64,000 nt of DNA from Deuterostichococcus epilithicus (taxonomy: Eukaryota; Chlorophyta; Trebouxiophyceae; Prasiolales; Stichococcaceae): the NCBI GenBank assembly GCA_033439295.1, contig JAVTLE010000014.1, positions 4,650,001 through 4,714,000 on the forward strand. The letters are read 5' to 3'. Position 1 is the stretch's first letter. Each line of letters starts with the position of its first letter. The translations under genes were made by a program, and so were the position numbers. The notes beneath the pieces were generated by a model that did no database searches, had not been told where the DNA came from, and saw nothing but the letters and a program-made list of their open reading frames with translations. Below are positions 6,879 through 62,800 of this stretch, in pieces.

Positions 6879-6936
6879 TGGGCAGTGCCGACCGCGGGCA
6901 AAGCCTCTCATTGTCTCCATTTCGTGTGTGAAGTAT

Positions 6937-6951: not shown

Positions 6952-6971
6952 TTTAGGGTTAGGGTTTAGGG
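6949..6971 (+). repeat. Interstitial telomere-like repeat
   Basis: About three telomeric units of the TTTAGGG type, one of them shortened to TTAGGG, sit directly at the U4 break. Shorter copies of the motif occur elsewhere in the window, mainly inside introns. Confidence 0.85.
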
Positions 6972-11841: not shown

Positions 11842-14800
11842 TCATTGAGCAAATCCGCAGCCTGCAGAGTGCTCCCAGGCAGTGCTCCCAGGCACCTGCG
11901 AGTCCAGCAGCAGCTGGTCGTCGTCGTCGGCGGCCTGGCCGGCTGGCGCCGCCTCCACCGCCGCCTGCAGCGCACGCAGCAGCGGCAGCGTGCCGCCCTC
12001 ACCGCCCAGCCCTGCGATGCGTGGGACACCGTCAGCACGGTATCTTCCAGCGCCGAGGACCGCAGATGACGGGTTTGCTTCAGAACGGAGTTTCAGCACA
12101 CCGCCAGCGCATCACTGGTGGTCGTTCTGTCAGCGAGTCCCCTCGTCGCACATCTGTGGAACAGTTCTTGCTTCAAAAGCAGCACCCAGTGAGGCAACCC
12201 GGGTGTGGGGTCTCACCGACGGCCCAGTCGTCGTGGTGGTGCTCTGTGAGCTTGTACAGCTGCTGCAGCGTGAGGCCGGGCGCTGCCGCCCGCAGCGCCG
12301 GCACAACTTCGCCGCCGCGCCCCGCAATACGTGCCACCTCATCCTTGCCCTGCAGCGAAAACGGTATGCTCAGATGTGAGCATGCCACAACAGCAGCGCC
12401 GTCCAGTCTCCAGGAGTGAGGGGGTTGCTGCCACTGCACTGCAACTTGTCCTGGCCGTCAGCAAGGAGTCAAGCCACTGGCATGGTTCCACATCGTCCCA
12501 CACTGTTGGCACCATTGCATCGCCCCTGCTCAGCCAGACCCTGCGCAGGCTGGGCCTGGTGCCCGCCGCATGGTCGCAACCACAGCCGCCGAAGCCTGCA
12601 GCATTCCCAATGTGCCCCGAAACGCTCTACGACAGCAGCGCCGGATGCAACGGCAGCAACAGCGACAGGACAGCAGCACCTGCAGCAGGTAGGCGACGGC
12701 CTGCTGGCTGTGGTGCAGGCAGGCGGTGATGTCGGCGGGCGAGCCACACCAGGTGCGCCCGATGTGGCCCAGCCACGCCTTCACCACCGCCAGCCCCGCC
12801 TGCGAACGAAAGAGAATTAAGAAAAGTCAACTGATTGATGTCAGTAGAGAGGTTCCCGGCCATGCCCCAGCCACCGCCATCTTCAGGCGGAGGCCTCTTA
12901 GGCCCGGGCAGTGCTGAACGCTCGCTGCCATTGTGCCGTCACTTGACACCCAAAAACGCCAAAACAAGGCGCTTCAAGACAATGCGGGAACAATGCGGGA
13001 ACAATGCTGAAACATGCTGAAACAAGGCGCTGAAATGCGGGCGGCACCTGCAGCGCCTTGACGGCGGAGAGGGAGCAGCAGTCGCGGCGCAGCACCAGCG
13101 CGTTGAGCAGCTCGGCGTCCAGGTAGCACAGCGCACCGGCCACCACCGCCCGCACCGCCGTTGGCGGCGCGCCCTCCCCCCGCATCACCTCGATCACGTT
13201 GCTCAGCCCGCCCAGCAGGCCCTGCGAAGCGGGAAAGCAACGTAGGAGCTTCCCAGAAGAAGCGTTGCTGTAATGGGCGCTCACTTGTGGGCGGTCAAAG
13301 TCGAGACTGCTGCGACCAATGGGACGAGCTGAGCAGGCAGGCGGAAGCGGAGTGCGGAAGCTGGTGCTGACCGCTGCTGACGGCCGCCGCGCGCAGCGCA
13401 GCAGGGCGGCACATGGAGCAGAATTCTGGCTTTCCTCGGCAGCTGCTGGGCAGCCAGCTTCCGAGCTCTTGAAGTTTTGAAATTCTGTTTTATTTGTTAC
13501 ACAAAAAAGCTGCAAAAAAAAGGGCAGCGCACCTTCCACGGCGAGTTCATGAGGTTCTCGAAGGTGAGCGCCTCCTTGCCGCCCTCCGCCGCGCGCCGGT
13601 CCTCCCGCTTCTTGTCTGCAAATAAGGGTAACCAATGCGTGAACACCCCTGCTGCAAACGCCCAGCCAGGCCAGGTGTCAGCGGCCAGGGCCGGCGGCGG
13701 CATGACAGCGGCCAGAGCCGGCGGCGGCATAGCACGGCATCCTATTGCCGTGTTATGGTGTTCCCGCCCTGGTTGAGGTCGGCGAGTGGCGTTGGGAGTT
13801 CCTGACATCGAAGGGCAGTCCGCACCCTTGCATGGAATGGAGGCAGACCGCAACGCAGCCGAGTGCCACGGCAGAGGCATCCAGTGGTTTAATGGACTTG
13901 CGCCCTTGCCGACTGGTGGCTGCTGCCAGACATGCTGACATCTGTGCCACGATGAGCGGCTCGCGGCCCGCCAGCCGGTGCCTGAGTGAGCGCAGGTCCT
14001 CCCGCCTGAGGACATCCAGACAGGTCGCAGGTGAAACTTAAGGCCGCACCCGTCTTCTGCGCGCCGTCGACGAGCAGCTCGGTGACGGCCACCGGCATCA
14101 TCTCCGGCACCGAGGCCGCCAGCAGCTTGTGCAGGGCGCCGAAGTTGATGAGGTCGTCGCCCAGGCGGAACAGGTAGGCCGTGCCGCCGCGCTTGCCGAC
14201 GCCCCGCACCTGCGTGGAGGGGGTGCGGAAGTGGAGTGGTGCCTTGCAGCACGGAGCAGGCTGGACTGGGGACATTCACGCCGCGAACCGTTCCAGACCT
14301 GCACGTGGCAACTGTGGCGCCGTCCTGCCGGAACAGGTATGCTGTGTTGCGGCGCTTGCCTGCGCTGTGCAGCTGTGAAGGCGACAAACGGCCAGTATGC
14401 AGTGAACTTCTTGAGCAGGCCAGGCCAGAAACACGTTACTTCTGAGCTTTTGCCACCTGAAACTGGACATGAGATCCAGACGCAGAAGTTTTACTGCCTG
14501 GTTCAACTCTAGGCATGCCTCCTGACTCTTTGGAAACAGCTGGGGAGCCGCACCCCGCCTGTGCGATTCTTCACACGAACTGGTGCATGGGTTAGAGACC
14601 CAGTTGCAGAGGGAACGGTGCACGCCTCGAGCAAGGCGCCAAGCGCGAGGGTGATGGCTCAGCCTGTGCGGCTGCGCCACCAGACCGCTGCGGCGCCCAG
14701 TGTGCTGACGGAAGGTCAGGTATTGCCAGGTGCGGCTGTCCAGAGCTGCATCACACCTTGAGGAAGGCGCCCAGCGCCAGCGTGGTGGCCAGCCAGTAGG

Positions 14801-17800
14801 ACTGCGCCACCAGGCCGTCGCGCGTCGCCACCGCCACCACCTCGCCCAGCAGCAGGTGCGCCGCCGCCGTCACCTTTGTGTGCCACAAACACGACAACAT
14901 TGTGTAAACTGAACACTAAACCCGAGGAGGGATTGGTCAGTGCTACGATGCAGGACGTGTCTTCACAGCTGCGCAAGAGGTTGACGCACTCCGCGCAGGG
15001 GTGGCACCACGGCCGGGACCGGGTGCCCGTCTCGGGAAAGCAGCCGGCCGCAGACAACGGGTCACGGGGATTGTATCGAGGGGTTTAGGGTTCAGGGTCG
15101 AGGGCACCTCGGGCGGCGACCATACGCCGGCCCAGTGCATGAGCGTCTCGCCCAGCACCCAGGCAGCGACGTGCATGCCCACAGCGTCCGTGGGACGGGG
15201 CCCCCACACGATGTTGACGATCTGCAGCCGCCGGTGGACCACGCCTGCGGCGCAGAGGTTTCAGGGTTGAGTGTTTTCACACGCTTTCGGTGCCGCTTCG
15301 GCAGTCCTGCAGCGATTGCTGCTGCCATGATGGCAGCCTGAGACGACCCTGACAAACGTTGTCGGACGAACCGGGTGCGCATCCCAGGCAGCAGCAGCGC
15401 CGCCACCTTAGCTGCTGTGCAATGCCCCGTAGATATCCGTCCCACAAGCCCCCATAACTTCCTTGCTAGTTCCCGATCCTTTGATATTGTCGTAGCACGA
15501 GGCTGAGAAAGTCCCACCCGCGATGAGCAGTGTCAGCGGCTGCGACTTGTCCGGACCCAGCTGCGTCGCAGCCGCCGCGGCGCCCGTGCCGGCGAGCGGC
15601 AGCGGTGGCGCCGCCCTCGCCGCGCCGCCTGCGGGTCGCAGCACAATGGCATGGCGTCAACCGCGCCCCCGCATGGCGACCTATGTGACTGACACAGCCC
15701 AAGCGAGTCCGAGCGACGCACACTTTGTGAGCCGGAGGGAACCAAGCGCCAAACCAACCATGCCATCAGGCCTTCCAACGCCGGGCCCGCCTCGTGCTGG
15801 GAGGCCCCCAGGCGGCAGGCACCATGCTGCCCGCAGCCCCGGCAGCACTTCACAGCCCTCACGGCAGCTCCCACCGTTGATGGGCGGCGGCGCGCCGGGC
15901 GCAGAGTGCTTGAGCGCCGTCCGCAGCTGACCCTCCCGCTCGGAGGTCTCCCGCAGCTGCCCCTCCAGCGCCGCGCTGCGCTTGCTCATGTTGACCAGCT
16001 GTGCAGAAAGGCGCACAGGGATCCGGTCATGGAATTCACCAGGACGGAATGCACTATGAAATGCGCCCCGTGCTTTGCGGCCTTGCCTTGTGGCGCGCCC
16101 CGCAGCCGCCCGCCCCACCAGCTGCGCTTGCGCAGGCCCACAAGCTGCAGTCGCACGCATCCTTCCGCCCATGTCGCTTCGCAACACCCAGTCTCCCCGG
16201 CGGGGGGACCACCGCGCCGCAGCTGCCCCTTGCCCGAGGGCACCGGCCGCGGCTTGAGCGGCTGAGTGAGAAGGGGATGCGCAAGCTGGGCAGCAGTGAA
16301 GTGAGGAAAGAGGAGCTGGAATGGCCGAAGTGCGCACCCGTGCCCCCAGCTGCACGTTCTTGGTGGACGACTCGGACAGCTCCGCCACCTTGGCCGCGAC
16401 GGCCGCCTCCAGCTCCGCCAGCCGCGCCGCTACTGCGTCGCGCAGCCCTGCGACCTCGTCCTGCGCGGCACGTCACGGAGGTTTTGAGGCTTGGCCAGTG
16501 GGAGGCAGCACGAGATGCTGTGGGACGGCATGACCGTCGCCACCTCCACCATCATTTGGGTCGTCACCATGTCGCGCGGCCCCGCCAGCCTGTGGTGTAT
16601 GAGGAGGTCGCTGGCGTTGGGCACGCCACAAGACGCTGGAAGGCCCCCAGCCAGCCATGCCAAGCCCTTTGAGCTCTGGCCACGGCGCTGTGCAGGCGGC
16701 CTGTGCCACACACGCAGCGGCGACACTTCGGCGCATCGAGGCATTGCATTAAGCACCAGCACAAGAGCAGAGGCCAACAGAGGTCGAGGTCCCGTCGCCC
16801 GCCGGTGAGCATCCTGAAAGAGACCCTTAAGACACAGTGCGCAGAGTTGCAAGACCGACTTCATGGATGAACCCGCCTGCCACGGCCGCACATGGCATGG
16901 TCTCATGTGCCTCCCCCGTGCCGCTCCGCGTATGTCCTTTAGCCGAGCGAGCGCAAAGGGCCGGCAGCCCTTTCTGAGGCCCCAGGACGCCTGCTTTGGC
17001 TCAAACCTCAGGAGACGCCTCCTTTGGCTCAGAACTCCACAGGCACCTCCCCCATCATGCAATGTCACTTAAACTGCCGCTTGAGGGTCGCGTCCTGACC
17101 CTAGACCCTCAAACCCCTGTGGCTCACCCGCGCCGCCGAGCGCGCGTCCTCCAGCTGCGAGTGCAGCAGGTCCTGGAGCGCCTCCACCTCCGAGTTCAGC
17201 GCCTGGATGGCGGCGTCCTTGGCTGCGAACTCGCGCTGGTACTCCTGCGCCGCGGCTTGCACCTGCGCGTGTCTCGCACAGCCAGGGTCGGACGCCACAT
17301 GCAAGCCTAGATCTCGTCGAGTGTAGCGCCTGGATTGCAGCGTCTCTAGCCAAGTATCACTGTGACCCCCTTGGGCTGCCGCTTGTACCTGCACTTCGCA
17401 CTATTCCCCAGGAGGGCAGCATATTGCAGCCGTGCCAACTAGTCAACTGCTGCCAGAACGTGGGAAGCTTTGGATACGAGAATGATGCAGTGGCACGTGC
17501 AACTTGCATGCGCTTGTTCGGAGAAAATCGAGCATATGAGAGTATCATTCGCGGTACCCGAAATGCAGTCAGAGGGTCGGCATCAACATGACGCGCCTGT
17601 TCCCAGAGCTTGGCGTTGGCGGCTTCCTTGGCCTTGGACTTTGCGATGAGGGCGCGGGCCTCCCCCGCTATGGCCTGCTGCTGCCCCTGCAGCCGCCGCA
17701 CCTGCGCGACGGGATGAAATTTTGTGAGCAGAATGGCAGCATAGAACTTGCTATGGCCTGCTGCTGCCCCTGCAGCCGCCGCACCTGCGCGGCAGGTGCG

Positions 17801-20800
17801 AAAAGCCTGTCAGCGGGGTGGCAGCACAGGCCGCAGCAGCGCGCCGCGGCAAATGGCCAGCAAGTGGCCGATCCTTGCCAAGGCACACAGCCCGGCTGCT
17901 GTTGCAGCGTGCAGTGAGCGTGCAGAAGCGAGGGTTCTGCGGTCCGATCCAGGTGCCCGCGGCGGCCGCCTTCCACAGCCGCCCGGAGCTTTGGCCAGCT
18001 ACGCTGTGGGACACCCGGCTCAGCTGCCGCCGATCCAGGTGCTGTGGAACGCAGGGCCACATCCCTGCAGCCTGCGAGTGCCCTGCAGCGCGGCTGACTG
18101 CGCAACAGCACCGGCCCGTTCCGCTGCGCTCCACACCCACGCAGCCCTGCACACGGCTCCTGAACCCCGCGGCGGCACACCCCAGCAGCTGCTTCCATAT
18201 ATGTTTTCTAGGATTCGTGAATTCAAGGAGGACAACCGAATATTGAAAGAACCAAAAACGTGTCAACCTCCTCCTGCAGCGCGGACTCCCTCGCCTCCGC
18301 GTCGGCTCGCCCCCTGCGCGCCACCTCCAGCTCCGCGGCCAGCGCCGCGGACGCCGCCGCCTGCGCCGCGCCCACCGCCGCGCGCGCCTCCGCGGCGTGG
18401 GCCGCCTCAGCGGCCGCCGCCGCCGGCACCGTGTCCTGGTTGCGGAGTTCAGGGTTTAGGGACGCGGAGCGGCCATCAGGTGCTTGTTTGTCCAACACTT
18501 CCGTCGACACGGAGTGCCAAACAACTCACGCCTCTCAGTGTGGGCTCCCTGCCTCCCGAGCCACCGCCGCCAGCACGGAGTTCCAGGACACCCATCGAAC
18601 ATGTGAGCGGTCAGCCGCCTGTGCATGCTTCGTCCGCACCTGGAATCAATGTTTACTGGCAATCTAACAGCACCCGACAGCCGGCAAACGGCAGCTCAGT
18701 GTTCTGTGTAATCAGTGGTCATCAGCAAGTTGTCAGCAAGCTGTGCCACAGGCAACGCTTGGAGCATCCGATCCGTGGGCCCTGCACAGTCAAATGTCAC
18801 CAAACAGTTGTCAAGTTCGCAAGAGTGCCGGAACCTCTGTAGCAGTCCACGAGTAGAGGAGAAAGAGAAGGAATCTGATGCTCGCCTCCAGCTGTGCGCG
18901 GCTGGCATCCAACTGCACGCGGGCGGCGTCAAGCTCCGCCAGCAGCCGCGCGTTGGCGGCGTCAGAGGCGTCGGCGCGTGCCGCCTCCGCCGCACGCTTG
19001 CTTTTCCAGGCGCCCACCTCCGCCTGTAGGTGTGGAGGTCGCATGCCAGAGTGGGTGAGATGATCGATGTTGCATCGTTTTTACAGGGCGCAGAGCTTGG
19101 GTCGTTGGCAGTTTGACGAGAACTCGTGCACTGAAGTATTGAACAGCACTGGCACATGGCCGCGGCCCTTGACAATGGTCCGACCACGCATGGGTGCACA
19201 TCAGAAACGGGAGCATGCCCGTGCCCGAGGCAGCAGACGCAGGCGAAAAATGCAGTGCACGAAAATTGAAGTTCAGAAGTGTCGGGGGTGCTGACCCGCA
19301 GCAGGTCGCGCTCGCCGGCGAGCGCATCGCGGTCCGCCAGCAGCGTGCGCCACTTCTGCGCCTCCGCCCGCATCGCCGTCGCCTGGGGGAACAATGAGCC
19401 CGCCAGCAGTCAGAGTGGGGGCGGCTCCGCGTCAGGAGGCCGGGCCGCTTCAGTGGCGACTGGCATTGCCGCAGGCGTCGACTTCAGGGAGGCCAGCAGG
19501 GCGGCCGCGACGGCAACGAGCTGAGGAGAGCTCTCAGGTGAGCGCTGCAAGCAAGACAGCCCAGTAGCAACAACCTCGCAATGGGCAGACAGCTGTGCCA
19601 TCTAGTTTGTAGTTTGTCACGGCAGAAGTTCCACCTTGCGCCGCGCCAGCACCCGGCGCGCGTACTTCTGCGCGACGACTGCCGCGGCGGTGGCCGCCGC
19701 GGCTGCCGGGGCGGGCNNGGGGGCGCGGCGGCCGGCTTCCGTTTCCCGCCGGAAGCGCGCCCGCTGCTGGTGCATGCGCACCCACGACTGGATGGTCGTC
19801 GCCCGCTTGTTCCTGCCAAAGAAAAGCAACATGTTTGCAAGCGTGCGCCAGAGTCTGCGGGGCCTGAGTCGGCGGCAGGATCGGCTGCAAAGTGAAGGGA
19901 CTGGCGGGCTGCCGCTTCGGGCTTGTGCAAGACGCCACCGTGCAGCCTTCGCCTCGCTGCTGCGCGCGAATGGGGTGACCCATTGACGGTGACGCCCTCG
20001 CGCGCCTCTGCGGTCGGGACACAGCAGCATCTGGGCGTGCCGCCGTTTGACACACGAATGGTTGAGTCAAGGGACGCATACCTGATGGCGGTGTGGTAGG
20101 CGGCCACGGCGGCATGGCGGCGCCAGTGCTTCTGCAGCACCACGGCGGCGCGCTCCCGCCGGACCGCCGCAGCCCGCTGCCGCCCGGCGTGGCCGCGCCA
20201 TGCAGCCTGCGAACAATACAAGGCATCAGGCTCCAAGCACTGCGGACCAGTGCATCGCAGCCAGTTGCAAGCAGGTGCAGACCCTGACAGTCTGGCTGGT
20301 CGTGGCCATGAATGATGGCGGTGGATGTCCACATCACGACAGGTGCACATGCATGTGCAGGCGGCTTCTCGGGTGCAGTTTCGTGTGATATCACCCACAG
20401 GCTCTGCCGGGCTGCAGGATGCAGGTTCAACTCATCGCAACATTTTCCGCTGCGAGCTCCGCATCCGTGCCAAGCGGATGCATCAGCCATGGACTGGCAA
20501 GCCACATCCGACGGGCGGCAGCACAACTGACACCCACGGCGCAGGCCAGCAACAAACGGGAAGAGCACATTCGGCCAGATGATTGATGGGCGCGAACCTG
20601 GATGACCACAGCGGCCGCCTTCTGGTGTGCGAACGTGCGGCGCTGCAGCAGGCCGCGCCACGACGCCTGGAGCCGCGTGATGAGCTCCGTCACCCGCCGG
20701 CTGCGTGCCGCCTGCATCCAGCAGATGAAGGTGCCGGCCCCGACGAGGCGATGGCACCGAGGTGTGGCGCACCGGAAAGGCAGTGGCGCCCGGCGGTGGC

Positions 20801-23800
20801 GGTCGCAGCGGGGCAAGCAGACAGCGCAGGTGCGGGTGCAGCGAAACAGAGTAGGAGCACAGTCCAAGCCTTGTCCCTGCGTGAGCATCGACCGCAGCCT
20901 GCAATGCGCAGAGGCTCCATATGCCGGTATGCAGGCAGGGGGTGCGATCCTCGATCCCTGATCCGAGACGTGCTTTTCTGTTCCCTGACAAAGGCGCGCA
21001 CCTCCAGCGCCGCCAGCTGCCCGGCGCGCAGAAAGGCTCGTGTCTTGCCGATCTGCCAGCCGGCGAGGCCTGACAGCGTCAGCACCTGCCGGCACACCTC
21101 GCCTGCCTCCTGCATCAGGTGGGTGCAGGGTTCGGGACACAGCAGCCGCTGGTCAGCGTCGGTGCACAAGCTGAGCACGGCCGATATCCACCGCCCTGGC
21201 AGTTGAGGTTGGGGAAGTCTAGTGGGCGCACATCCGAGCCCACCAGTTAAGATCCGATGGGCCTGGGCGCCATTTCGTTCTGCCCAGGTTGACACCGTCT
21301 ACGCAGACGGGTTGTCATGTGCCATGAACCTGATCTCCGAGTGCATCCCATGAACGTGATCTCGATTGCATCCGAAAGCGTGCGGTCAGCACCTCGTCAC
21401 TCATGTCAGCAATGACGGCGCCGGCGGCGGCGCCCCGCAGCAGCAGCTTGTAGCGCTGCGCGAACGGGCGGATGGCCTTGCGCGTGGGGAAACCTGTGCG
21501 CACGAAGCAACTCGTCATGCCCCCGTCCGCTGTGGTGATCAGCACAGCCCTGGATAGCCTCTTCTGCAGATCAGTCCTCCAGGTTCTTCTGGAGGCTATA
21601 TGCGAACAGACCACATGCGGCAACAGAAAAACAGGAACCGTCTGCATGAGCCGAGGGCGTAGTCTCAGGCTTCAGGACTGCGCACGAGTGCAGGTGATGC
21701 GGACGGCCTCCAGAACGCCACCGCCCGCGCACAGATGCTCCCGCAGCTTCACTGCTCACGAAATAAACCACCAACCACAGGGGGCACGGGCAGTGAGGTA
21801 GTCAGGGGTGCCACGCACCGGCGCAGGCGATGCGGACAGCCTCCAGAACACCGCCGGCGCGCAGCTGCTCCAGCGCCATGGTGCCGTCCCACTGCCCTGG
21901 CACGCCCCCGGGGTTGGGCTTGATGCATCTGCGGGTCGCTGCAAGTATATTTGCGACATGGTTGTACACTTGTGTGGCTGACGCAGCTGGGGCACTGCGC
22001 GAGCTCAGGTCTTCCAGTGGCATGCAGCATGTGGCCTTTGCCGCCGTGCTGTCCCAACCCAAGCGCTGACCTGCACGATGTTGAGCTTAACGCATAGCGA
22101 CCTCAGATCCTGAACAAAGAGACCGGCTGTGGCTCACCTAAGCCATAGAGCTAGCACATATAGTGCACAGTCTTTTCGCACCTGACGTAGTGCGGCTGGC
22201 AGGCGGACAGCGTGGCCATGAGGCCCTTGAGCTGGCCGCGGAACTGGGCGCCCACTGAGTTGAGCTTGAACGCCGAGCGGCGGCCCGGCGCCGCCGCCTC
22301 CGCCCCCGCATCCGCGCCCAGCTCCCTGCACGGGGTTGTCAATAAGTAGAAGCTAGGTTCATGCTGACAAGTAAGGAAATGCAGTCAACTAAGGGAGGCA
22401 GGGACAACCATTCGGCCCTGCCCAGGCCTCGAGCGAGACGCCGGCTCGGAAGAGGCCAGCAGGCGACCAGCTGACAGGCAGCCCGGCGCGAGCCGGCCAG
22501 GTGCTGAGGCAGGCGTCAACGTTCCTGTTGCCGCCACGGTCACTGACTCTCACACACACGAGTCAGCGGCGGCCGGCACCTGACAAAGTGGGAGGCGGAG
22601 TTTCGGATGAGCGCCGCGTGCTCCGCCACCACAAAGTCCTTGTTTTTGTCCAGCAGCGCCTCCGTGGAGTACACCACCTGGCAGGGGTCACCGGAATGAT
22701 CAGAAATAGTTATTCAACGTTGTAGGCCGCAGCTGCGAGGCAGGTTACTGGCCGTTGCCAGTTCTTTTCCACGGCGCATGTTGTGGAAGTTTGTGCAACT
22801 GGCAGGGGCCAGCCGGTATGACAATGCTTACATGAGCCGAAGCTGACAAGCGTGGCTCGGCCACCACAAAGGCGAGAAGAACAAGACGAGCAAGGACACC
22901 AGTAGTCCTTTGTTTCGTCCAGCGGCATTTGTGGAATGCACCACCTCCGGCCGCATTTCTTTGTCTAGACGTCAGAAAACCCACTCAGGAAGCAGCCACG
23001 GCATCACCATGCATACTCCATCACGCGCTTGACGGCTCAGCCGCCGGCTTGCGGACATTTCCGTCGCCTGACAACCCCCCAGTGAGCACATGTGCGGCAT
23101 TGCGCCTGCTGACGGCAAGGGTGCCTAGAAAGAGAAAATGAAAGCTTGTGCACCTGACCGGCATAGTGGTCGACGCTGAAGGCATGCGGCGGGCGCTTGG
23201 GGGCACTGAAGCACGGCTGCCCTGCCAGCCGCTTGCGGATCGTGTGCGCCAGGTCCTGCGACAGCAGTGCGCATGGGGTTTGGGAGATGCTCGTGGTCAT
23301 GTGAATGGCTGTCGATTGAGACTGGAGAGCACCAGCGTCAAGGGAGCAACTGCCGCTTCACGAGAAGACCCGACTGGGAAAGGTCACAGCGACAGCGCTC
23401 GAAGTTGGCCTCGATCAAGTGCGAGTTGGCAGCTTTGGCGTGAACGAGTGTCCAGCTGAGGGGGGCGGAAGTCGTGCACAGCACGGAAGAACCCCTGCCT
23501 GATGAGTAGCTCACACAGTGCGCTGAGCCTCATGAATGAGTGGGAATGCAACCAGCGCTGCGACTGTTCGACAGGGCGCAGCGACCGTGCTGCAACAAGC
23601 CCTGCAAACCTGCCTGATAGGTGGCACGCGCAATGCGGTTGGCCTCGTCGATGAGCGGGAACACGCCGAGCGCCGCCGCCGGCCCTGACCCGCCCTCCAG
23701 CAGGTCCAGTGTCTCCTGGTTGTCGATGAAATCCACGTAGCTCCACTTGATGCCCTCGCGCACGTACTCCTCTTGCTCTCCCTGCAGCCAGAACAGGGCT

Positions 23801-26800
23801 GCCTATCTGGGTTGCCTAGCTGCAGCAACCGAATGTCTCACTGGTTGTCAATGAAGTCCACGTAGCTCCACTTGATGCCCTCACGCACATACTCCTTTAA
23901 CTCTCTCTGCAGCCCAGGAGAGGTCTGCCTGTCTGGGCGCAGCCGATCGTTTCCTGGTTCCTTCGACAAGTCCACATAGCTGCACATGATGCATTCCTGC
24001 AAAAGCTCCTCCTGCACCCCATGTGAAGCGCAATGGGAACTATATGGAAGCGTGTCGTCGGCCTCTAGTCGAGTTGTGGATGGTCATCCTCCTGCTCACC
24101 CTGTAGCGGATGTGAATGCCTGTACAGAGCTGTGTCATGACCTTTGCAAGGACGTCTGGTCTCCTGCCGTCGCTGATGCCGCAGGCTGCCTGTTTTCGTT
24201 ACAGCCGCCACTGCCGCAGTCCAAAGCATGCAGAGCAGGTGGCTCGAGGCCCCCACACCTTGAAGATGTGCTGGTTGAAGTGCTGCTGCAGGCGCTCGTT
24301 GGCCAGGTTGATGCACAGCTGCTCGAAGGAGTTGACGGCGAAGGACTCGAAGCCGTAGATGTCCAGGATGCCAATCACGCGCTCTTCACTGTCCTTGGCG
24401 CCTACCAGCAGTGCGGTCGATCGTTTAGCTGGCTCACTTCGACGCTATCATTCGGTGTGGCGCATGCCTCAGCTGCCACACAGGTCTTCGTTATCGAGAC
24501 AGAGGTGTCTGCGTGCGATGCCTGTCCAGCTCCCTAGGAGGATGCGATCAGTGACGCACTGCCCGCATCACAGCTGGCATTGAACACCTAGGCTCATCAG
24601 GGGCTCGTGTCACATAGGAGCTCACAGCGTGCCCAAGTCCAGGCACCAACTCGAAGCGCAAATAGCCGCCATGCACACCCACCGTAGGAGGGGATTTTGC
24701 GGTTGATGGCGGCCACCAGCCAGTCAAACAGGTTGGCGTACAGGCTCTTGGCCAGCGCATCGCGCGACTCCGCCGCGGCGCCATCGTCCAGCACCTTGAC
24801 GATGGCTTCCCCCCGCATCTCCAGCGTCCGTGTCGTCAGCGCATGCAGCAGCGCCTCGGGCGCAACCTGGACGTTTCACAGCTTTTGAGAGCAGTATCAT
24901 GCATACTTTGCAAGACGGCGCAGCAGCTCATCAATTGCCGCAGCTGGCTGTATTGCGTGCAGCAGCTATAGCTCCACCTACGCATGCATGCGGACGGCAT
25001 GTTGAGGTTTTGAATGGCATCGATGCATAGCTGGCTGTTCAAGATTATGACTCGCTCCCATGCCCAAGCGAGTTGCAGGTAATTTTTTTTGGGTGGCGTC
25101 AGCACATGCAGTGGCGCCCCTATTTCGACCTGAGCGAGGACAGTTTTGCAACCACAGTTGAAGGAGACTTCGGTTATGTTAGTCGGGCCGAGTGCAATAC
25201 CATGGTGTGCGGCGGCATGGCTGCGGCACAACTGCCTGCGGCAGCACTTGCATGCACGCAGGGCGGCCGCCAGAGACCAGTGCATTTTGGCCGCGCGCAT
25301 ACTGGATGGCAAGGAAAATTGTATTGATTTGTACACGGGTATGAGAGCATGACAGGCAGGGCATACAGTCCCAGCCTGCACGGCAAGCTTCCTGGGTGCT
25401 CATGAACCAGCGGTTCTTATGCAGCTCTGCACCTGCAGCAGGGCGGCCACGATGTCCAGCTCTTGCTGCGCCGCTGCGGATGCCAGCACCGCCTCGTCAG
25501 CGGCATTCTGCTCGAAGTCGACATTGCCCAGGTGCAGCACCGCCGCCACCACGGACAGCACCGCTTCCTGCGGGCAGAGAGCATACGGTACGTTGCTTGC
25601 AAATGGCATCCAGAGAGCATAAGGATGATTGTCTGCGCAATCTCCGTGTTGCCCAGGTGCAGCGACAGCGCAGCCGGTCGGCCAAACTCTTTCTGTGGGA
25701 TGCTGCGCAATGAGTCAGCTTTTTCCGAAACATGCGATCGACTCTAACCGAGCCCCTGCTCCCTCTTACGCACTCGGGAGCAGCACTTGCGCCGCCAGCA
25801 AGCGCGCTGCTGTCCAGAGCCATCACATGTGCCCGCAGCTGCCGCTGGACAGCACTGTGAACTCGTGCGTGCAATTCGGCATTTCGCACTGATGGCAGCG
25901 CCATCCATCCTGTGCTGCCACCTCCTGCATTGTCGATTAGCCTCCTCCTCCAGTCAGCAGCCAGCTGACAGGTGGGATATGCCAGGACAAAGCAGGGATG
26001 GCACGTCAGCATCAATTCTATCGCAGTGTGCTTGCAGAGGAGCCTAGGCTTGCAAGTTGTAGCAGCGCCCCCTGCTTGTCTGCAAGGGCAGGCAGGAGGT
26101 CGCAGGCACAGCAATGCTAGAGATCGCAGAGCTTTGCTCTGTCTGCAACGGGCCAGCGCTTGCAGCGGTGCCCCGACTTTCTGTTGCAAGGGCGCACCTG
26201 CCTTCTGGATGGCGCTCGCGTCACCTGTGCCCTCCCTGTGCCAGCGCAACCCAGCCAGCATGCCGATATGCGTGCGGCCGCACTGCGGGCGGTGCCCATT
26301 CGTGCTCACCCTTGCAACAGCGGGCACTATCAGCAGCACGACCGTGCCGGCCACTTGACTGTGTGATTGCCTACCTGCTCCGCCTCTGAGCGGCTGGCAA
26401 TACGCATCGCTCCGTGTGTGTTGTGGCGAGGGTGCCAACTGCACCCCTGTCACAACGGATAATGAGCGAGGCAGGGATAGTGTCACCTGCTCGCCCTGCG
26501 ACAGGCCAACAATGGTCATCGCGTCCCGCGTGTTGCGCAGCGCCTCCGCCTCGTCCACGTCCGCCAGCACGGTCACGTCCGAGCGCAGGTACCGGAACGA
26601 CTTCACGCCGCCCTCCAGCCTGCATGGGAGGTGAGTGAAACTCAAGAATCAGTGGAAAGGAACCAGAGGAAACACGTGTGGTGCAGCCGGCGCCTGCCAC
26701 CTGCGATGGGAGGCCCCAGAAATGCCCAAGCCTCGTCCGCCAGCCTGTGGGCATTCTGTTGCTTCGGTTAGTGAAAGGGAGACCGCCGGCCTGCAGCTCT

Positions 26801-43928: not shown

Positions 43929-44985
43929 AGCACCAGTATTGGTCAGCTCGTCGTGAATTTCTAGGAGATATGCCTTTTCCTAACTCAAAGTTGCTGCTTT
44001 GCCTGCAAAAGATGCTCTGATCTCTTCGGACGAATGGCAGGCAACATGCAGGGTGGCTTCATCACGTCCCAAATCGTCCCAAATGCTACACAGGCAAGAT
44101 TTGTGCACCAGCTGGACATGCAGACACCCCACAGCCCTGCCCCCGAACCTGATCGCATCTGATCCTCGCAACGCATCTGATGGTATGGTCACTTTGCAAC
44201 CGCAATACTCTCACCTGCTGCCAGAACCTCCTCGTGACGCACCACCACGGCCACCCGCCGTGCCGTCGAGGACGGGCTCAGGTCTCCCTGTGGCTCCATC
44301 CCATCCCTTGTTGCTGCGCAGAATGCAACTCAGGGTGTTCCTCCGAGCAGCTCTGTGACCTGGAAGAGATTCTTACAGGACTAATCCTCCCATCGGAACG
44401 GCGGCTTGGGCCTGCCCCAGAATTTGGCGCAGGTGATGCGCCTGCTCATCCGAGAGTACCACCGCTGGAGGCGCTCTTTGACCGACATTGTAGCAAGGCA
44501 GTGTGCATTCGAGTGTCGCTTTGCGCAAGTGTCTGATCTGCGGTGAACAGGTGCCGCCCATACCTCCGAATGCACGAAAGGCATGTGACTTCCACCGCCG
44601 ATATTTCCACTGCGCCTGGCTTTACTTCCTGATGCTGGCGGCAATGCTGAGGGTGTAATTTAAATCTGCGTACCATTGCTTTACCGTTGAAGGTCGTTCG
44701 CACAAACCACAAACGCTATCGGCATACACCTGATGCGGATCACTGTTGCAAAGCTAGCGATTTTTTGCTGCGGCTCCCAGACCTCTCCGTCGCACTCACT
44801 GTACCGCGTTGAGAGGCACAAAAGCTGTTTCAGCGCGACAACGCAGCTCCTGAATCAGCTCATTACTCATCGAACTCAATGGCACTCCGCCGCGCCGCCG
44901 CAGTGAAGGGGCCAGCAGGCCAGCATTCCCTGCCTTCGACTGGATGTCGCTGCGGCTTCTGCAGCCAGCCAGCTGACCGCCTGCG
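43929..44985. other. Intergenic between hydrolase 3' end and transporter B start
   Basis: Short frames only. It should contain the transporter B promoter and perhaps an unrecognised first exon. Nothing else recognisable. Confidence 0.45.
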
Positions 44986-48982: not shown

Positions 48983-51900
48983 ATGCCGTGTCTTCACCCG
49001 GACCACGTCTGGGGCTGCAGCGCGCCTTCGCAGGTGATTGACAGGCGGCGTGAAGTGATTCTTGGCTTCTGCAATCTCGGCCTCTGCAAAGGTGTCAGGG
49101 AGGCTCGAATGTATCATGACGCCGGGCGTTCATGTCGCTTTCAAGGTGGCGCAGGGGCAGATGCGCATGCCGGGCGCTCGGTGCATGGGCTGCCAGTGGT
49201 TCACCACCCGGTGAGGCTGCTGCAGAAGCTTCACTCATCACATCTATGCTGTTACTTATGCTACTGCGACTGACGGATGCGCGGTGAGCAAAATATGGGG
49301 TGTGAAATGCTTATGCACGGCTTGCAGGCGTACAGCGCTCCGCAGCTGCCCCCAGGCCACCGCTTTCCCATGGTGAGCAAGCTCACTCGGGCGGCTGTAA
49401 TGCTGTTGATGCAGCGACTGCTGCTGCTGGCGCCAATCTGATCATGGTGGGGTGCGCTACCCCAGGCTGAGCGCCTCTTGTACCCCTGCAGGGCGTCTTC
49501 CAATGTATCTATGACCTGCTGCTGCGCGACGGCGTCATTACGCCAGAACAGGTCAGCTTGCGGGCTTGCCAACTGTCCTCGCATGCCTGTCATGTGCACG
49601 GTGGCAGCAGCTTTGGGATGTCGGGTCCTGAAGTCGCAGGGGTGCGCCAGCACATGGCATCGTTCCTGATGTCATGACGTGCAGGTGAACATACCAGCGT
49701 CGCTGCCCAATCGGGAGATGCTCGAGCTGGTGAGCCCTCGTTCGTCACACTCTGCGCTTGCATCGTGCAAGTCTGCAGCAGGGTGGCACCCCCAGAAACC
49801 ATCCGCATCGTGCAACACCAATCTTCCCCGGCATCTTCCTCTCTGAACGGTGCCCATACAAAACCTGGCCGCAGGCGCACGACCCCGCCTACGTGGAGAC
49901 CTTTTGCAATGGCGCCCTGGGCTACGCAGCCGTCAAGCGCATCGGCTTCGGTGCTGTCACGCGCTCGCCGGTCCTTGTGGAGCGCACCCTCGCCGAGATC
50001 GCTGGTGCTCCGGCTACTCAGGCTGCTCCCTCGATCTGAATTTGACAGTGTGACCGGATGATGATCGTCCGCAGGAACACGGAACCTGGCAGTGTCGTTG
50101 CATGCTTGCCGGCATCCGCGGATGTGCCTAGGCATGCAAAAGTGCGCATTGACCTGAGCTGCTACTTAGGGTTGCCTGACTGACGCATTGTGCATGTTGT
50201 TTTTTATAATGGTTACGAAGGTGTCCCTGCTTTCGGCGCTCAGGCACGCTGCTGACGGCGGAGCTGGCGCTGCAGCACGGCCTGGCGGTAAACACAGCCG
50301 GCGGCACACATCACGCCTTCAGGTACAGCTGGCATTGCCATTCGCCCCCCTGCAGTGTCGACGCCATGCCTTGGATTGGATGTTAATCCTTCAGACCTGT
50401 TTCTCAAGCATGAGGCTGTTCCTGTTCATCTGGTGCTGCCCGTCTGGCGTCTCTGGATACTGTTGCTGGAACCCATGGCGGAGTTGCGATGTCCCTGCCA
50501 CCGCGCAGGGGCTACGGGTCGGGTTTCTGCATCCTCAATGACCTGGCGGTCACGGCGCTGGAGCTGCGGCGGCGGCGTGATGTGGAACGCGTCTTGATCC
50601 TCGACCTGGACGTGCACCAGGTGGTCCTGAACGAGGCTTCACAAATGCCGGGCCCTGTAGCTTTCGGTGTCCTCTGACTGAGAACTAAGCCTGCCTTGCT
50701 AGTGCATCGGGCATGTCACATTTGCGTCACACAGCGCGTCACTGCGGCGGCTGCATAGCATACGCGCAGCCTGATGCGTGACGCGCAGGAGCAGCGACTT
50801 GCGAGGTGCCAGACGGTGGCTCCACTGGATAGGTTTGCAGTTTGTTTGCATCTGTTCTGCCTGCGTACTGACGCCCGCTCCGCGCGTTGCTGCTGCGCCA
50901 GAGCAGGGCGATGGGACGGCGGCCATACTTGAGGGGCACGAGCACATCATGACCGTCTCCTTCCATGCCGCTTCCAACTTCCCCGCCCGCAAGCAGCGCA
51001 GCCACCTGGACGTGCCGCTGCCTGACGGCATGCAGGACGACCAGTATCTGAGGTGGGCTGGACCTGGTGATTTTGAGCATTGGCCTGACTTGACGCATTT
51101 GACATGAGAGGTGGGAGAGATGACACCCTTCCACGACAACAGCAAAGCTAGAACAACTGAGGCGCTTTGATACATCACCCCCAAAATTATCAGTTCCAAC
51201 CCTGGTGGATTGAAGTCCCCCAATCTTTGCAACATTGATCTAGGCTCGTTCCAGCGCTGCGTCATCATCACAGCTGCTCTATCGAGGATCAAGCCCGCTG
51301 GTGCATAAGCAGGCAATAGGTGGCGGGCTGCGGCACAACCAGAACCGTTTTGACACTGCCCAATGCTGGATGCGAGGGATGCAGCTTCATGCTGCAATGC
51401 AATCATTGCTGTGTCCACCTCGGGCACTGTTCTCAAAACCATCGGCTGATACCCGCAGGAGGGTGGCCGACACGCTGTCGGGGCCTCTACAGCGCTTTCA
51501 GGAGCCGAACCTGGTGCTGTATTGTAAAACGTTTTGCTGCCTCCAAAGGCAAACCCTCCAGCAGGGCTGTCCATCTCTACTGCTGCAACCACCAGGCGGG
51601 CGGTGAAAACCTTCAACCCTGAACCCTAGAGACTCTGCTGCTGGGGATGCCGGTGCGCATCCGGCCGGGCTTGGTGCCATTTTTGACACAGCGACCGCTG
51701 CCCTCGGCACTGCCTTTCGCTTTGCACAAAACCCCTGCTGTCATGGCCGCAGGAGGGTGGCGGACACTCTGCCAGGGCTGCTCCAGCGCTTCCGGCCGGA
51801 CCTGGTGATGTACGATGCGGGCGTTGACCCGCATGGCGGCGACGCGCTGGGGAGGCTGGCGCTGACGGACGCCGGCCTGCACCGCCGGGAGCTCCTGGTG

Positions 51901-53134
51901 AGACTCTTATGCTGCTTATTCCCACATAGTTCACACTTGTGTGAACCATTCTCTTGAGAAAGAGAGGCCGAAAACTCCAAAAGCGCATGGGCCGAGCTGC
52001 TGCGGCCTGGCACGCTGGCGCGGCTGCCGCTGACAGTCGCCGCTGAGCACCGAAGGCAGCTGATGGTGCGTCGCTGCTATGCTCCGGCATTCCTGACGAG
52101 CAAACTCCGGAATTTCCAAGGCGCACCGGCCCATGGCGCTGACAAATGCCAGCGGCCTGCAAGGGCGGCCGGGTGCTTTCTGACAAGGCCTGCGGCAAGG
52201 GAGCTGCCGCTGCTGATGAGTCAGCTGGGCACAGGTTGCGCAACAAGAGAAACCCTGAACAAAATTATATCTGAGATCCTCAGAAGCTCCCTGGTGCTGC
52301 GGCATTGTGGCCGTGTGGCACGCCACTGTCGTGCCCTAGTGGATGGCGCATGTGGACGGCACCCCCTGCCGGCCAGAGACCAGCGCCTGCTGCTGAGCGG
52401 ACCTGACTGTGGTCAAACATGAAAGGCAGACCACAGGTCGTGGGCGTCGTTGCGGCAGCACTCAGTCCCCGCACTAGCAGTCTTGGAAGGGTGTCATTGA
52501 GGATGACACCTGCCGTAAAGCGGCAAGCATATTCCTCGGTTTCTGTGTCAGCTGCTAGACTCTGCGCTGGGCGTCGACGTTGCGCTGGCGTGCATCGAAG
52601 AACCTGCCTGCTCATCATGACGATTTTATTAAGATCCTCTGCAAGCATGCCGCACATGCCTGCAGCTATGTTGCATATTTTTCACAGGTACGGGACACTG
52701 CGTTCGCGCGATGCAGCAATATTTCCGGCAGGCGTCATCGGCGCGGCGGAAGCCATTGCATCTTTGCGTTTACTTCTGCAACTCCTGCAGCTTTGCAATG
52801 GTGCAAAGTGGACGCTGACCATTTCCAGCTTCTGTGCAGTGCCAGTGCGGTGCTGAGCTTTTGACTCCGGACTCCCGCTTGCGGGCGGCGTTAGTTGCAG
52901 GAGCCGCTAGGGGATTCTTACCAGCGCTTCTCAATTGCAAGTTGGGCAGCAGACGCATGAAGCTCATCCTTGATCCACCTGTAAATGCAGGTGCTGGACA
53001 CGGTGCTGGGTGCGGGAATCCCGCTGGCGGGCGTTGTCGGCGGCGGCTACCATAAGGATCTGCTCGTCCTGGCGGCACGACACACTTGGCTGCACCGCGC
53101 CGCGGTGCAGATGTGGACTGACCACGGGCTGTGA
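48983..53134 (+). CDS. Histone deacetylase-family protein (bacterial/class IV-like type)
   Basis: Zinc-dependent deacetylase of the arginase/HDAC fold. Ten exons join in perfect phase: 48983-49033, 49328-49372, 49492-49551, 49685-49729, 49875-50004, 50244-50322, 50509-50620, 50907-51052, 51753-51897 and 52991-53134, total 957 nt, 318 aa plus stop. Motifs: LPPGHRFPM; HDPAYVETFCNGAL; GGTHHAFRGYGSGFC with the active-site His pair; LDLDVHQGDGTA with zinc ligands Asp and His; YDAGVDPHGGD with the third ligand; and GGGYHKDLL with the catalytic Tyr. All key residues are present, so it is probably active. The length and GGTHHAFR resemble bacterial-type deacetylases more than class I enzymes. The substrate may be histone or not. 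The start is chosen because its frame fits exon 2; the ATG at 48937 does not. Confidence 0.92.
51450..52070. repeat. Exon echoes around HDAC exon 9
   Basis: The exon start CGCAGGAGGGTGGCGGACAC (51749) has a close copy CGCAGGAGGGTGGCCGACAC at 51454, which still reads RVADTLSGPLQRF, and a weaker copy near 51629 (GACTCTGCTGCTGGGG...CGGCCGGGCTTGGTG). Downstream, the exon end GAGGCTGGCGCTGACGGACG with its donor is copied at about 52015 (GCGGCTGCCGCTGACAGTCG). The exon is thus echoed on both sides. Confidence 0.8.
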
Positions 53135-58286: not shown

Positions 58287-58639
58287 ACGGCTGTTGCAGC
58301 CACATTCGTGCAGGAGGCTTGGAAGCTCTTGTATCGCTGCCCCCAGCCAACGCTGCAGCATCTGCTTGCCCTGCACTCCAGACCGAGGGAGGACTCGACC
58401 CTTGACGCCACTGTGCTGGTCCTCCTTCTATACAAGATCAGCTTTACAAACACCTCGGATGAAGAGCACCAGCGGCTTTACCTGGAGTGGGCAACCTGTG
58501 GTGGCATGTGAGTTCACTGTTGTGGTCAATGCGCGCATGCAGGCAACAATGGTGCTTGCAGGGTCTGCATATTCAAGGTGAATGTCCTGCTCGCAGGGAC
58601 GACTGGTACGCCAACGGCAAAGCCCTCAAGCAGGACTGA
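58287..58639 (+). pseudogene. Small protein paralog 2, start codon replaced by ACG
   Basis: Exons 58287-58507 and 58597-58639, phase 2, about 87 aa. Codon-by-codon alignment with paralog 1 puts ACG (58287-58289) opposite its ATG. It then reads AVAATFVQEAWKLLYRCPQP, TLQHLLALHSRPREDSTLDA, and ends MDDWYANGKALKQD, stop. The reading frame is otherwise intact and splice sites are normal (GTGAGT, CGCAG). Upstream in the same frame a TGA follows within three codons, so no in-frame ATG is available in this exon. It is either a recently silenced gene, a non-AUG start, or a gene with an unseen upstream exon. Confidence 0.6.
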
Positions 58640-59884: not shown

Positions 59885-62800
59885 TCAGATGCTAGAACCC
59901 TCGTGAAGCAACACGTACTCGCGCGTGCTGTTGCCGAACCGCACCATGTCCTGCGACATGGGCAAACCATTGGCAGGTTGCAGGAGGTGGACGAAAGAGC
60001 AGCTTGTTACACCAATGAACGACTGGTCCTGAAACACACCCACACATGCCGAGATAGGCGAGAGACGAGGAAGGAACACAACAATCAGTGCGGCTCAGCA
60101 GTCCCAGTGTAAGGCCTCGCACACCTGCTCCAGCAGGTCATGGGAGCGCTGGACCTCCACGCAGCAACACCAAGACGTCCTGACATCTGGGCATCGACTA
60201 TGAAGTCGGCAATCCGAATGAGATGCGTGCTTGTGGGAGACATCCACCTGCTCCAGCAGCTCGTAGTATCGCTCCCCCTCGATGCGCTCGTTGTTCACCC
60301 AGGTGCCGTTCACGGAGCCCAGGTCCATAAGATAGGGCCGCACGGAAGAGTGCATCATGCCGTCTGCGCCCTCTTTCTCAGTCCGCCTGCGCATCAACAG
60401 GAGGATGACGCTGAAGGACACTGGAGCGAGGGCTGTGGACGAAAACCTCGCCAGGTTGGGCCGCACTGATGCGTACATCATGCCGTCCGCGCCCCTTTGC
60501 CTGTGCGCCTGTGTGAGGAGAGATGGTCGGAAGCAAAGAGTTAAGGGAACATGTCCACGAGGTATGGCTGCACTGAAAGCGTGCATCTGGCTGTCCGCGG
60601 CCTCTGTTCTGCGCGCCTTCGGATCATACCAGACAAGAAGTTGCTCAGACAGTGTAAATGCAAATGATTAAAGATAGTTGGAGCGTAGGTCTACAAGTCA
60701 CGGCCGCGCGCAAGCATGCAGCATGCCTTCAGCACCGCCCATCTCCGTGCGCCTGCGCAGCGCAGATGATGGACTCGGGGCATGAGGCCGTAGGACACTG
60801 ACAGCAAGGCCTGTTGCATTGGCCCCTGGTTGGGGTCTGCGCCTGCCCGACACACACGGGCATCCAGCTGTCAGCCTGTCCAGCCGGTGCCATCGTCCGC
60901 GTGCATGTGCCATAGACTTGCACGGCGCGCCGCCATCTCGCTGCAGCCGGCCTAGTGTGCCACCAAATGCGCACCTGAATTGCAGCACCGCATGCTGCTT
61001 GGAGCAAGAGGGGTGGTCCGTCGGCACATCCGCAACCCGCCGCTCCCGCCCAAACAGGTAGCAGCTCTGCCGGTGGATCGGCAGCGGGTCCTGCGCGTAA
61101 GGCACAGCAATCATCGTCGTTCGGGATGCTGCACACAGCATGGCGCACATGACAACGATACAGCGATCGCCCGCCGCTGATCAGCGGCTGCCGAGCCCGG
61201 CATGTTTCCCGTCTCCCCGGCCTCCCTCACCGCACTCCGGCACAGACATCGTCGACGCCGCAGCATCTGTGTCCGTGCCAGACCCATTCGAGCCTGGCCC
61301 CGGCTGACGATCCGCACACGTCTGTGCAGTTGGCATCGCATCACATCTGAGACATGACCAGACACGGCGCCACCCAGCAGGGCTTGTTGCCCGTGACTCG
61401 GCACAGGCGCCTGAGGCGCTGCAGGGTGTTGCCGCTCCGCTGCTGCCAACCGAGCTACGCTGCCAGCCACTGCGTTTCCGCAGAAGGGCCGCCAGCCTCC
61501 AGACCCACGAGGGCTTGCCGCGCCCGGACTGACACAGGCGCCCGCGCTGCTGCAGAATGGCCGTGTCGCAGCCGCTGCCGACTCAGCTGGAGCTGACCTG
61601 ACAGCCTCACAATTTCGCAGGAGGGCGACCAGGCTTCGCATGACCAGGCTCCGCCACTTGAGATGGCAGCGCCCACCTGGAAGGGCTTGCCGCCCTTGAA
61701 CTGGTACAGGCGCCAGCGGTGCTGCGGGTTAGCGGCTTCCTGCGGCTCCGCGTGCAGCATCACCACACCGTTCACCTTGTTGCTCTCCGCCGCCAGCGCG
61801 CCCGACAGCCCAAAGTCCGGCTCCGGCTCCGGCGCCTGCAATACAAAAACCGTGAAGCCATCGTCCTACAGGTGGCCGTCCTGTGTCCCTTGTGCAGGGT
61901 CACACCGGACAGCGTTTGCTCTCTACTGCCAGCGTGACCAGGTACGCAGAGTTCTGCTCCGTCGACGGCGCCTGGGGGAATATCATTTATACTATGGTGA
62001 AAGATGATGCTGGAAGGGCTACGTATGACTCATTGCTGTGGCGCTCCACCGCCTGCGCGCATGAAAGCCCGAAGCCCGGTTCCGCTACGAAGGACATGGA
62101 CAATCTGAAGCAGCAAACTGTCGAACATGGCAAGAGTAAAGAAGCTCGGTGACATAGGTGAGAGTCTCTGTCGCAATTGCAGTGCCTCCAGCTTGCCTGG
62201 CCGCGGCACAGAGACCGAGCACAGCATCTGACCTTTCAACAGGCAGGCGCGCACACGTCTGCATCTGGCGCATGCAGTGCCTGCTGATGTCAGGATAGGG
62301 CTTGTCAAAGAAGCTCGTGGGCCACTGCAGCCTCGGCTGCCTCGGCCTGCGGCCGCACCTACTGCTGCTGCAGCGTCGCTGGCCGAAACAGCATGCCGGT
62401 CTGACTCGCGCTGGGGCTGGCCGAGGGGTCGCATGAATGCATAATTGGGAGCGGTCGCAAGCATGTGCCAGAGTTCAGGGTTTAACTGCCAGTGTCCCAC
62501 CTCCTCCTCGGCAGGCTCGTCCAGTGGCGGCGGCCCCTGCTGCTGTGGCGGCGGCGGCAGCGCCTCATTCAGCTGAGCCGCATCGGGCGACTGGTCGAAG
62601 CGGCTGCGCCTGCAGGGCGACCAGCAGCACAGGAAGGATTGTACGGAGCTGCTCATCTCAGCAGCTTCCGGCGGCAGCTGTGCGCAGCGGCGCCTGGCTT
62701 GGCTGCCCTGCTCCCGACGGCTCTCACACAGTGCCGGCCCCAGGTGCGGGGCATTGAGGACTGCGTGAAGGAAGGTGGCTCGAATGTGCATGTTCTCTGC

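Follow-up and report, generated by a model that had tools for sequence, protein, structure and literature searches.

Where does exon-like sequence inside an intron come from? An earlier note on the 64,000-nt stretch of the Deuterostichococcus epilithicus genome analysed here (the window) had claimed that part of an exon, with its acceptor or donor, is echoed in the adjacent intron at a series of places in unrelated genes, and that such introns are built from tandem copies. We compared each intron with its flanking exons (up to 150 nt) by Smith-Waterman alignment, accepting scores of at least 35. The gene models came from our own HMM gene finder, run without RNA support, and gave 90 introns in the window and 402 in a sample of 21 other 10-kb stretches on other contigs of the same genome. 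The analysis covers this one genome, and the window had been singled out for its echo-rich look. A Pfam check on the proteins of four gene models backed all four: a myosin head (profile positions 2-679 of 679, E 1e-210), HDAC, FHA and Aa_trans. The collections of viral and genome contigs searched yielded no relatives of the myosin.

Copies of exon ends in the adjacent introns

Copies of the neighbouring exon end were found in 16 of the 90 window introns and in 22 of the 402 sampled introns (5.5%), that is, in 38/492 overall. The window count compares with 0/336 for swapped exons and 0/90 for reverse-complemented exons, and the first 16 sample stretches gave 20/305 compared to 2/1468 and 2/305, respectively. 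At the same score, exons swapped in from other genes produced 1 hit in 759 side-tests in the window and 5 in 4704 in the sample. The swapped-exon control used exons of up to 150 nt and the final list, which holds 42 echoes, exons of up to 400 nt. Echoes thus lie far above both controls and extend beyond the window to other contigs. They are more frequent in the window than in the sample (16/90 vs 20/305, p 0.003), as expected because the window was picked by eye. The claim that introns are built from such copies is overstated, given this frequency in the sample and a unit that is usually only partly recognisable.

Comparing the window with itself without gaps (+1/-1, score at least 17) revealed 69 direct repeats at distances of 20-1000 nt compared to 5 at 5000-5980 nt. 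At a score of at least 24 the counts were 25 and 0, and 18 of these 25 lay 110-300 nt apart. The first 16 sample stretches contained at least 36 near repeats and no far ones; the 36 is an undercount, because the complexity filter dropped long repeats. Contiguous tandem repeats of similar size also occur outside predicted exons (L009, L032). Repeat pairs joined exon to intron in 49 cases compared to 7 joining intron to intron (26 vs 2 as clusters), an excess of which slower decay accounts for only a part (p 0.003 under our own decay correction and 0.06 under a generous correction). Several of the near-perfect copies, at 24-47 nt, fall short of a whole unit. Since the copies are 70-90% alike, their sequences make assembly duplication an unlikely source.

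The places listed in the earlier note were all recovered as direct repeats. On the minus strand, an exon tail with its donor (14752..14822) is echoed at 14621..14692 (distance 130-131; matches start at 14621 and 14660 against 14752 and 14790). The opposite end of the same intron holds an echo (14318..14375) of an exon head at 14155..14212, 163 nt away. Also on the minus strand, the unit at 17.7 kb, an acceptor with an exon head, looks young, with its downstream copy at 17667..17744 and its upstream copy at 17750..17829 (distance 83). Its identity, described as perfect, is 45/47 nt with 42 consecutive identical positions; the exon part is identical over those 42 nt and the intron part roughly 70% alike. 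In the myosin gene (minus strand), the exon tail and donor at 21814..21874 recur at 21681..21744 (distance 130-133), and those at 23609..23676 recur at 23494..23561 (distance 115) with the donor copy kept. A myosin exon head with its acceptor and the intron end (23716..23811) has a first echo that includes the acceptor and some intron sequence (23841..23937, distance 125-126) and a second, more diverged one (23968..24023). Further myosin exon heads lie at 17180..17262, echoed at 17305..17392 (distance 126-127), and, with the acceptor, at 27283..27361, echoed at 27394..27475 within the intron 27703-27359 (distance 111-114; one in-frame stop). The myosin intron echo at 22.6 kb was recovered as a weak match (score 42, distance 267).

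In the amino acid transporter gene (minus strand), 47 nt of a 48-nt exon (43443..43489) are echoed at 43543..43589, a distance of 100. The HDAC gene, on the plus strand, echoes an exon head and acceptor (51747..51812) at 51453..51521 (distance 291-294) and an exon tail and donor (51836..51913) at 52002..52083 (distance 166-168); the repeat pairs 51638/51769 and 51845/52013 were recovered here as well. The FHA gene (minus strand) echoes one exon head and acceptor (60314..60393) three times, at 60453..60494 (distance 122-123), 60577..60618 and 60680..60759 (distance 366), the last with its acceptor copy kept. Its exon tail and donor at 61673..61745 recur at 61510..61553 (distance 172) and 61370..61425 (distance 300-303). 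A further exon tail and donor on the minus strand (62492..62558) is echoed at 62317..62383 (distance 175). At 45-46 kb the segment 45398..45464 repeats 45551-45614 (distance 150-153), and a three-copy array occupies 46210..46285, 46327..46398 and 46454..46516, all without an assigned strand. These are confirmed as repeats and not as exon-to-intron copies, because a gene model is lacking there; any copy of the array could be the exon, and one of the five frames tested matches Isochorismatase. Separately, weak GC-rich matches were noted in the introns starting at 18267 and 47759.

Position and spacing of the copies

The copy is an exon end with its splice site: in 34 of the 42 echoes it begins or ends within 8 nt of the splice junction, on the donor side in 18 of the 42 and on the acceptor side in 24. 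The spacing, first put at mostly 110-160 nt with two to four copies, is better given as 95-180 nt in 34/42, with a median of 126 among distances of up to 200; arrays of three and four copies are present. All 35 single-unit echoes have spacers of at least 34 nt. The nearest echo is the one most identical to the exon in three of the five arrays (23.7, 60.3 and 61.4 kb) and not in the other two; scores and identities order the copies differently at 60.3 and 61.4 kb.

Decay of the copies

Mismatches between exon and echo amount to 0.184, 0.205 and 0.283 at the three codon positions, 11 stop codons occur in 675 aligned codons, indels are present and echo distances modulo 3 are distributed 8/15/12. 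With stops, indels and all three frames represented, the echoes look neutral, and coding or frame-selected echoes were rejected on the stops, the weak codon-position bias and the distances. The same features, together with the mostly partial nature of the exon copies, make it very hard to credit that the echoes are functional alternative, mutually exclusive or regulated poison exons, even though an AG or GT/GC is kept in 15 of 28 copies. At a rigid offset, which could be applied to 28 of 36 echoes, AG is kept in 9/19 acceptor copies and GT or GC in 6/9 donor copies, so the suggestion that echoes supply decoy splice sites stands in part. Preferential keeping of such decoys, at first indicated by 36/39 bases, did not hold once echoes with an alignment ending near the junction were included. 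Transition hypermutation was likewise rejected, with 250 transitions and 255 transversions.

Intron growth and intron birth

The median length of echo-bearing introns is 411 nt compared to 218 nt for the others, and they are also longer than a length-biased draw (median 270 nt, p 1e-6). After subtraction of the repeat distance the median is 251 nt, which does not clearly set them apart from ordinary introns (p 0.064). The echo unit is added DNA. The myosin intron before VLESNP is 345 nt long and carries a 114-nt echo, and the paralogue has an intron at the same position and in the same phase, 244 nt long and free of an echo. The myosin intron is therefore older than its echo.

Tandem duplication had been proposed to create or lengthen introns; the lengthening is borne out, creation as a general outcome is not. 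Birth of introns from a duplicated exonic AGGT segment (the Rogers model) would fit the absence of the 43.4 kb echo intron from the other Aa_trans-like gene in the window, and a gapped register test from donor to acceptor gave a small excess at score 28 (5/487 vs 1/1829), leaving a few possible cases. However, none of the 36 aligned echoes had a repeat distance equal to the length of its intron, and there is no overall excess of in-register identity: on the upstream side it was 0.264 compared to 0.267 in the control for the window and 0.251 compared to 0.262 for the sample, and the downstream side was likewise at control level. With one echo also lying in the older intron common to the paralogue, we disfavour this model as highly improbable for the echoes. 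Collectively, the echoes show how introns can grow and mostly not how they are born.

Origin of the echoes

The reading that we favour, with a probability of about 0.58, is that tandem duplications of ~80-175 bp arise across a splice junction, that splicing keeps to the outer site and that the inner copy becomes part of the intron. Short tandem duplications of this size (median distance 126) would arise in many parts of the genome. If such a unit straddles the boundary between exon and intron, splicing would continue to use the site closer to the part of the exon that was not duplicated, and we propose that the gene survives because of this. The duplicated exon piece and a spare splice site would then lie inside the intron and splicing would presumably ignore the inner site, so that the intron gains one unit with mRNA and protein unchanged. 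Free of coding constraint, the copy would decay into a fading echo of a conserved exon, and repeated rounds could yield arrays of three or four copies. Parts of this sequence of events are shown directly: the repeats and their junction position, the length that they add, their decay without coding constraint, and an echo within an intron that predates it. At 23.7 and 17.7 kb the two copies are alike along the unit, intron sequence included, and the 61.5 kb spacer resembles its counterpart; most echoes show no such continuity.

Junction-spanning duplication predicts less divergence in the intron half of the unit than we observe, and the model leaves this unexplained. In the 34 junction-reaching echoes the intron-side flank scores 13.8 compared to 12.3 for unrelated flanks, and a matched simulation with acceptor-side geometry and our own rate assumptions predicts 26.1. 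Of the 34, 31 do not exceed the simulated median, and the flank would have to have diverged about twice as much as expected. Spacers score 16.9 against their counterparts compared to 14.7 in the control (p 0.07), and 2 of 30 exceed the 99th percentile. Alternatively, templated end joining, or a break with staggered ends or a pair of nicks at the junction, could copy the exon end with a few intron bases and add unrelated filler, which implies that the intron half was never duplicated. Flank similarity near the control, short near-perfect copies amid unlike sequence (L003, L014, L028) and the spacers of single-unit echoes, none shorter than 34 nt in 35 cases, are consistent with this. Still, the intron part remains recognisable at 17.7, 23.7 and 61.5 kb, a transition-tolerant flank score is above the control (p 2e-4 to 8e-3), spacers have no clear match nearby (direct p 0.07, inverted p 0.13), and one spacer searched with its echo matched, genome-wide, only itself and its own exon. 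We regard filler as unlikely, though worth keeping in view. It is rather doubtful that a copying process tied to the splice junction, acting on DNA or linked to transcription, places 20-100 nt of the exon end, counted from that junction, ~100-175 nt away in the intron and leaves the adjoining intron uncopied; if true, introns throughout the genome would be steadily supplied with exon-like sequence by recurrent events.

Tandem duplication followed by exon-to-echo gene conversion, which would maintain similarity in the exon part and let the intron part diverge, appears improbable from the sequences. The contrast between the two parts of the 17.7 kb unit fits it. At 60.3 kb, identity falls from 0.73-0.80 between exon and echo to 0.63-0.73 between echoes, but independent decay predicts the same. 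Several other origins were rejected. A retrocopy of spliced RNA is not indicated, as echo flanks score 11.2 against the neighbouring exon and 11.1 in the control (34 echoes). An introner or transposon origin found no families, with a non-local match for 5 of 503 introns in an all-against-all comparison of 274 kb, and genome-wide searches with two loci recovered nothing beyond the query itself and its exon. Copying of spacers from nearby sequence was not significant (mean 22.6 direct and 21.0 inverted, control 20.5).

Relation to known systems

Introners add sequence within genes that is removed by splicing. The echoes are likewise added sequence within genes; unlike introners, they form no repeated family in the 274 kb compared or in two genome-wide searches. 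Tandem exon duplication, as in mutually exclusive exons, places an exon copy beside its parent, whereas most echoes are partial copies, and they have decayed and show no selection for frame. To our knowledge, gain of intron length apart from transposons is poorly documented.

A study of a potato RdRp gene describes a tandem duplication across a 3' splice junction that created an intron together with an additional piece of exon, and also mentions an intronic tandem duplication of 83 bp (Ma, Lan and Niu 2016, PMC4974935). As in that account, the duplication here would span the junction and carry splicing signals with the copy; in contrast, the inner copy here appears to end up silently in an intron that was already present, in many genes and at donors and acceptors alike. 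In the AGGT model of intron gain by tandem genomic duplication, as outlined in a review (PMC3443670), coding DNA with splice-like ends is also duplicated; here the distance differs from the intron length and the splice sites are out of register. The titles and abstract openings surveyed describe no such echoes, nor do the portions of text consulted for Coccomyxa (PMC3446292) and Auxenochlorella (PMC12636532).

An appreciable fraction of introns in this alga has been lengthened by local copies of exon ends and splice sites that decay like junk DNA, and 22 of 402 sampled introns retain a visible record of their own growth. Because the copies occur on donor and acceptor sides and at many levels of divergence, one organism allows direct tests of how introns grow, how splicing chooses among duplicated sites and how decoys are lost.

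Near direct repeats and gene models

Self-comparison of the window (C12:4650001-4714000; genome of 46.8 Mb in 21 contigs) revealed 69 direct repeats at distances of 20-1000 nt compared to 5 at 5000-5980 nt at a score of at least 17, and 25 compared to 0 in the same two ranges at a score of at least 24. The distances of the near repeats peaked at 110-170 nt. The places listed in the earlier note are real repeats, each being found in the self-comparison or in gapped alignments. Gene models were built without annotation using a Viterbi gene finder made for this analysis, seeded with myosin exons from a Pfam family search and trained to convergence on the window and on 10-kb stretches sampled elsewhere in the genome. 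This predicted 503 introns (median 223 nt) with a CAG|GTGCG-like donor and a YGCAG|G acceptor consensus. GC replaced GT at 44 of the 503 donors (~9 percent), and at 7/38 among echo-bearing introns. Four window models were backed by Pfam: myosin head (full-length, E 1e-210), HDAC, FHA and Aa_trans.

The window also holds an LTR-like direct repeat pair (3584-4337 and 9813-10567; 757 columns, 94.5 percent identical, 6.2 kb apart), between whose arms lie five frames without a Pfam match. There is also an inverted repeat of ~125 nt (5872-5995 and 11280-11403, 76 percent identical); its first arm falls inside the LTR-like pair, its second just outside. Fifteen Ns are scattered over 14 places within 2078-19718, nine of them within 5487-5677; these lone Ns are perhaps ambiguous or heterozygous bases replaced during assembly.

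Exon echoes in introns

Echoes, decayed direct copies of an exon end and its splice site inside the adjoining intron, were first counted as exon-to-intron alignments scoring at least 35, using 16 sampled stretches. They were detected in 16/90 window and 20/305 sample introns, compared to 0/336 and 2/1468 with exons swapped in from other genes, and 0/90 and 2/305 with reverse-complemented exons. The final count (21 stretches, retrained models, score at least 36, introns longer than 60 nt) gave 42 echoes in 38/492 introns (16/90 window, 22/402 sample), 18 on the donor and 24 on the acceptor side, with both sides represented in 4 introns. The swapped-exon control at this threshold gave 1/759 side-tests in the window and 5/4704 in the sample. 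The intron-exon self-similarity proposed earlier is therefore borne out, with real matches far above both controls, and it extends beyond the window into the sampled stretches. Echo density in the window was ~3x that of the sample (p 0.003).

The exon part of an echo measured 26 to ~90 nt, and 34 of the 42 echoes came within 8 nt of the junction. Exon-to-echo distances were 95 nt or more in all 42, with a median of 126 nt when values above 200 are set aside; at a young case in the myosin gene (17.7 kb) the distance was 83, and the gene finder calls two exons there. A spacer of at least 34 nt separated all 35 single-unit echoes from the splice site, in a test whose blind zones were limited to 6 nt at the start and 14 nt at the end of each intron. 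The suggestion that each echo supplies decoy splice sites held in part: at rigid offset, some inner copies were intact (AG kept in 9/19, GT or GC in 6/9).

Added length and decay

Introns with an echo had a median length of 411 nt compared to 218 nt for others. Subtracting the distance left 251 nt, whose difference from other introns is unclear (p 0.064), and a length-proportional draw of ordinary introns reached a median of only 270 (p 1e-6 versus echo introns). The myosin intron before VLESNP is 345 nt and contains a 114-nt echo; the myosin paralogue on contig C18 has an intron at this position, in the same phase, of 244 nt without an echo. Among tested paralogue introns, echoes occurred in 2/15 of the C19 myosin and 0/11 of the C18 myosin. 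Echo DNA is thus an addition to the intron rather than an overwriting.

Exon-echo mismatch at codon positions 1/2/3 was 0.184/0.205/0.283, and 675 codons showed 117 synonymous and 250 non-synonymous changes and 11 stops. Distances modulo 3 (remainder 0/1/2) were 8/15/12. Exon parts had a G+C of 0.692 and echoes 0.667, compared to 0.566 for spacers and 0.591 for the remaining sequence of echo introns. Mismatch, stops, frame spread and G+C fit an unconstrained copy next to a constrained exon. Of the five arrays, three (23.7, 60.3 and 61.4 kb) had their top identity to the exon in the exon-nearest copy; the other two (46 kb and 61.8-62.1 kb), where the exon copy is provisional, did not. Sampled stretch L013 carries a local duplication of ~2.2 kb (1-2206 and 7342-10000; 96-98 percent, second copy broken by ~420 nt), which might serve to calibrate how fast introns diverge neutrally.

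Origin of the echoes

If introns are born by duplication of an exonic AGGT segment, the donor context matches the acceptor context at an offset equal to intron length. In-register identity was not above control (window 0.264 versus 0.267; sample 0.251 versus 0.262), and distance equalled intron length in 0/36 aligned echoes. The earlier note cited AG|GT duplication as a proposed way to create or lengthen introns; creation is not supported as a general rule. Gapped donor-to-acceptor similarity at score 28 showed a small excess (5/487 versus 1/1829 control). Two related transporter-like genes, at 139-2699 and 38443-44299, have four intron positions and phases in common; the latter, which carries the Aa_trans match, has several further introns, and its 43.4 kb intron is missing from the former. 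The gapped excess and this intron leave room for rare births.

We give most weight to tandem duplication spanning the splice junction, which would place a copy of the exon end in the intron, where it would then decay neutrally. One known event type explains the added length, distance, arrays, decay and orientation (echoes are direct, and reverse-complement matches are close to control), and the clearest cases show it. Such a duplication should copy intron sequence as well. A copied intron part is seen at two places, 17.7 and 23.7 kb, and a third, 61.5 kb, has a spacer similar to its counterpart. Over 34 echoes the intron-flank score was 13.8 compared to 12.3 for unrelated flanks. Simulated duplications with matching exon score and length (acceptor-side geometry, assumed rates) gave 26.1, with 31/34 echoes at or below the simulated median. 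A transition-tolerant score found weak residual similarity, and 2/30 spacers exceeded the controls' 99th percentile (overall p 0.07). The flank would need a total divergence of ~0.8 or more, whereas by our calculation the exon part (0.25) predicts ~0.43. Exon-intron repeat pairs outnumbered intron-intron pairs 49 to 7 (26 versus 2 clusters), where pair placement alone predicts near-equal counts; after correction for slower exon decay the excess had p 0.003, and 0.06 under a generous correction. Either the copies were exon-limited from the start, or conversion keeps exon parts alike, or intron ends evolve faster than assumed. The main rival, duplication with filler at DNA breaks, reportedly seen in plant studies of paired nicks, would account for the absent intron half.

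Among published cases found, the nearest to junction-spanning duplication is the potato RdRp gene, in which a duplicated segment crosses a boundary between intron and exon (PMC4974935). In the open-licence literature, covered mostly at the level of titles and abstract openings, no genome was found described as carrying echoes of this kind in large numbers.
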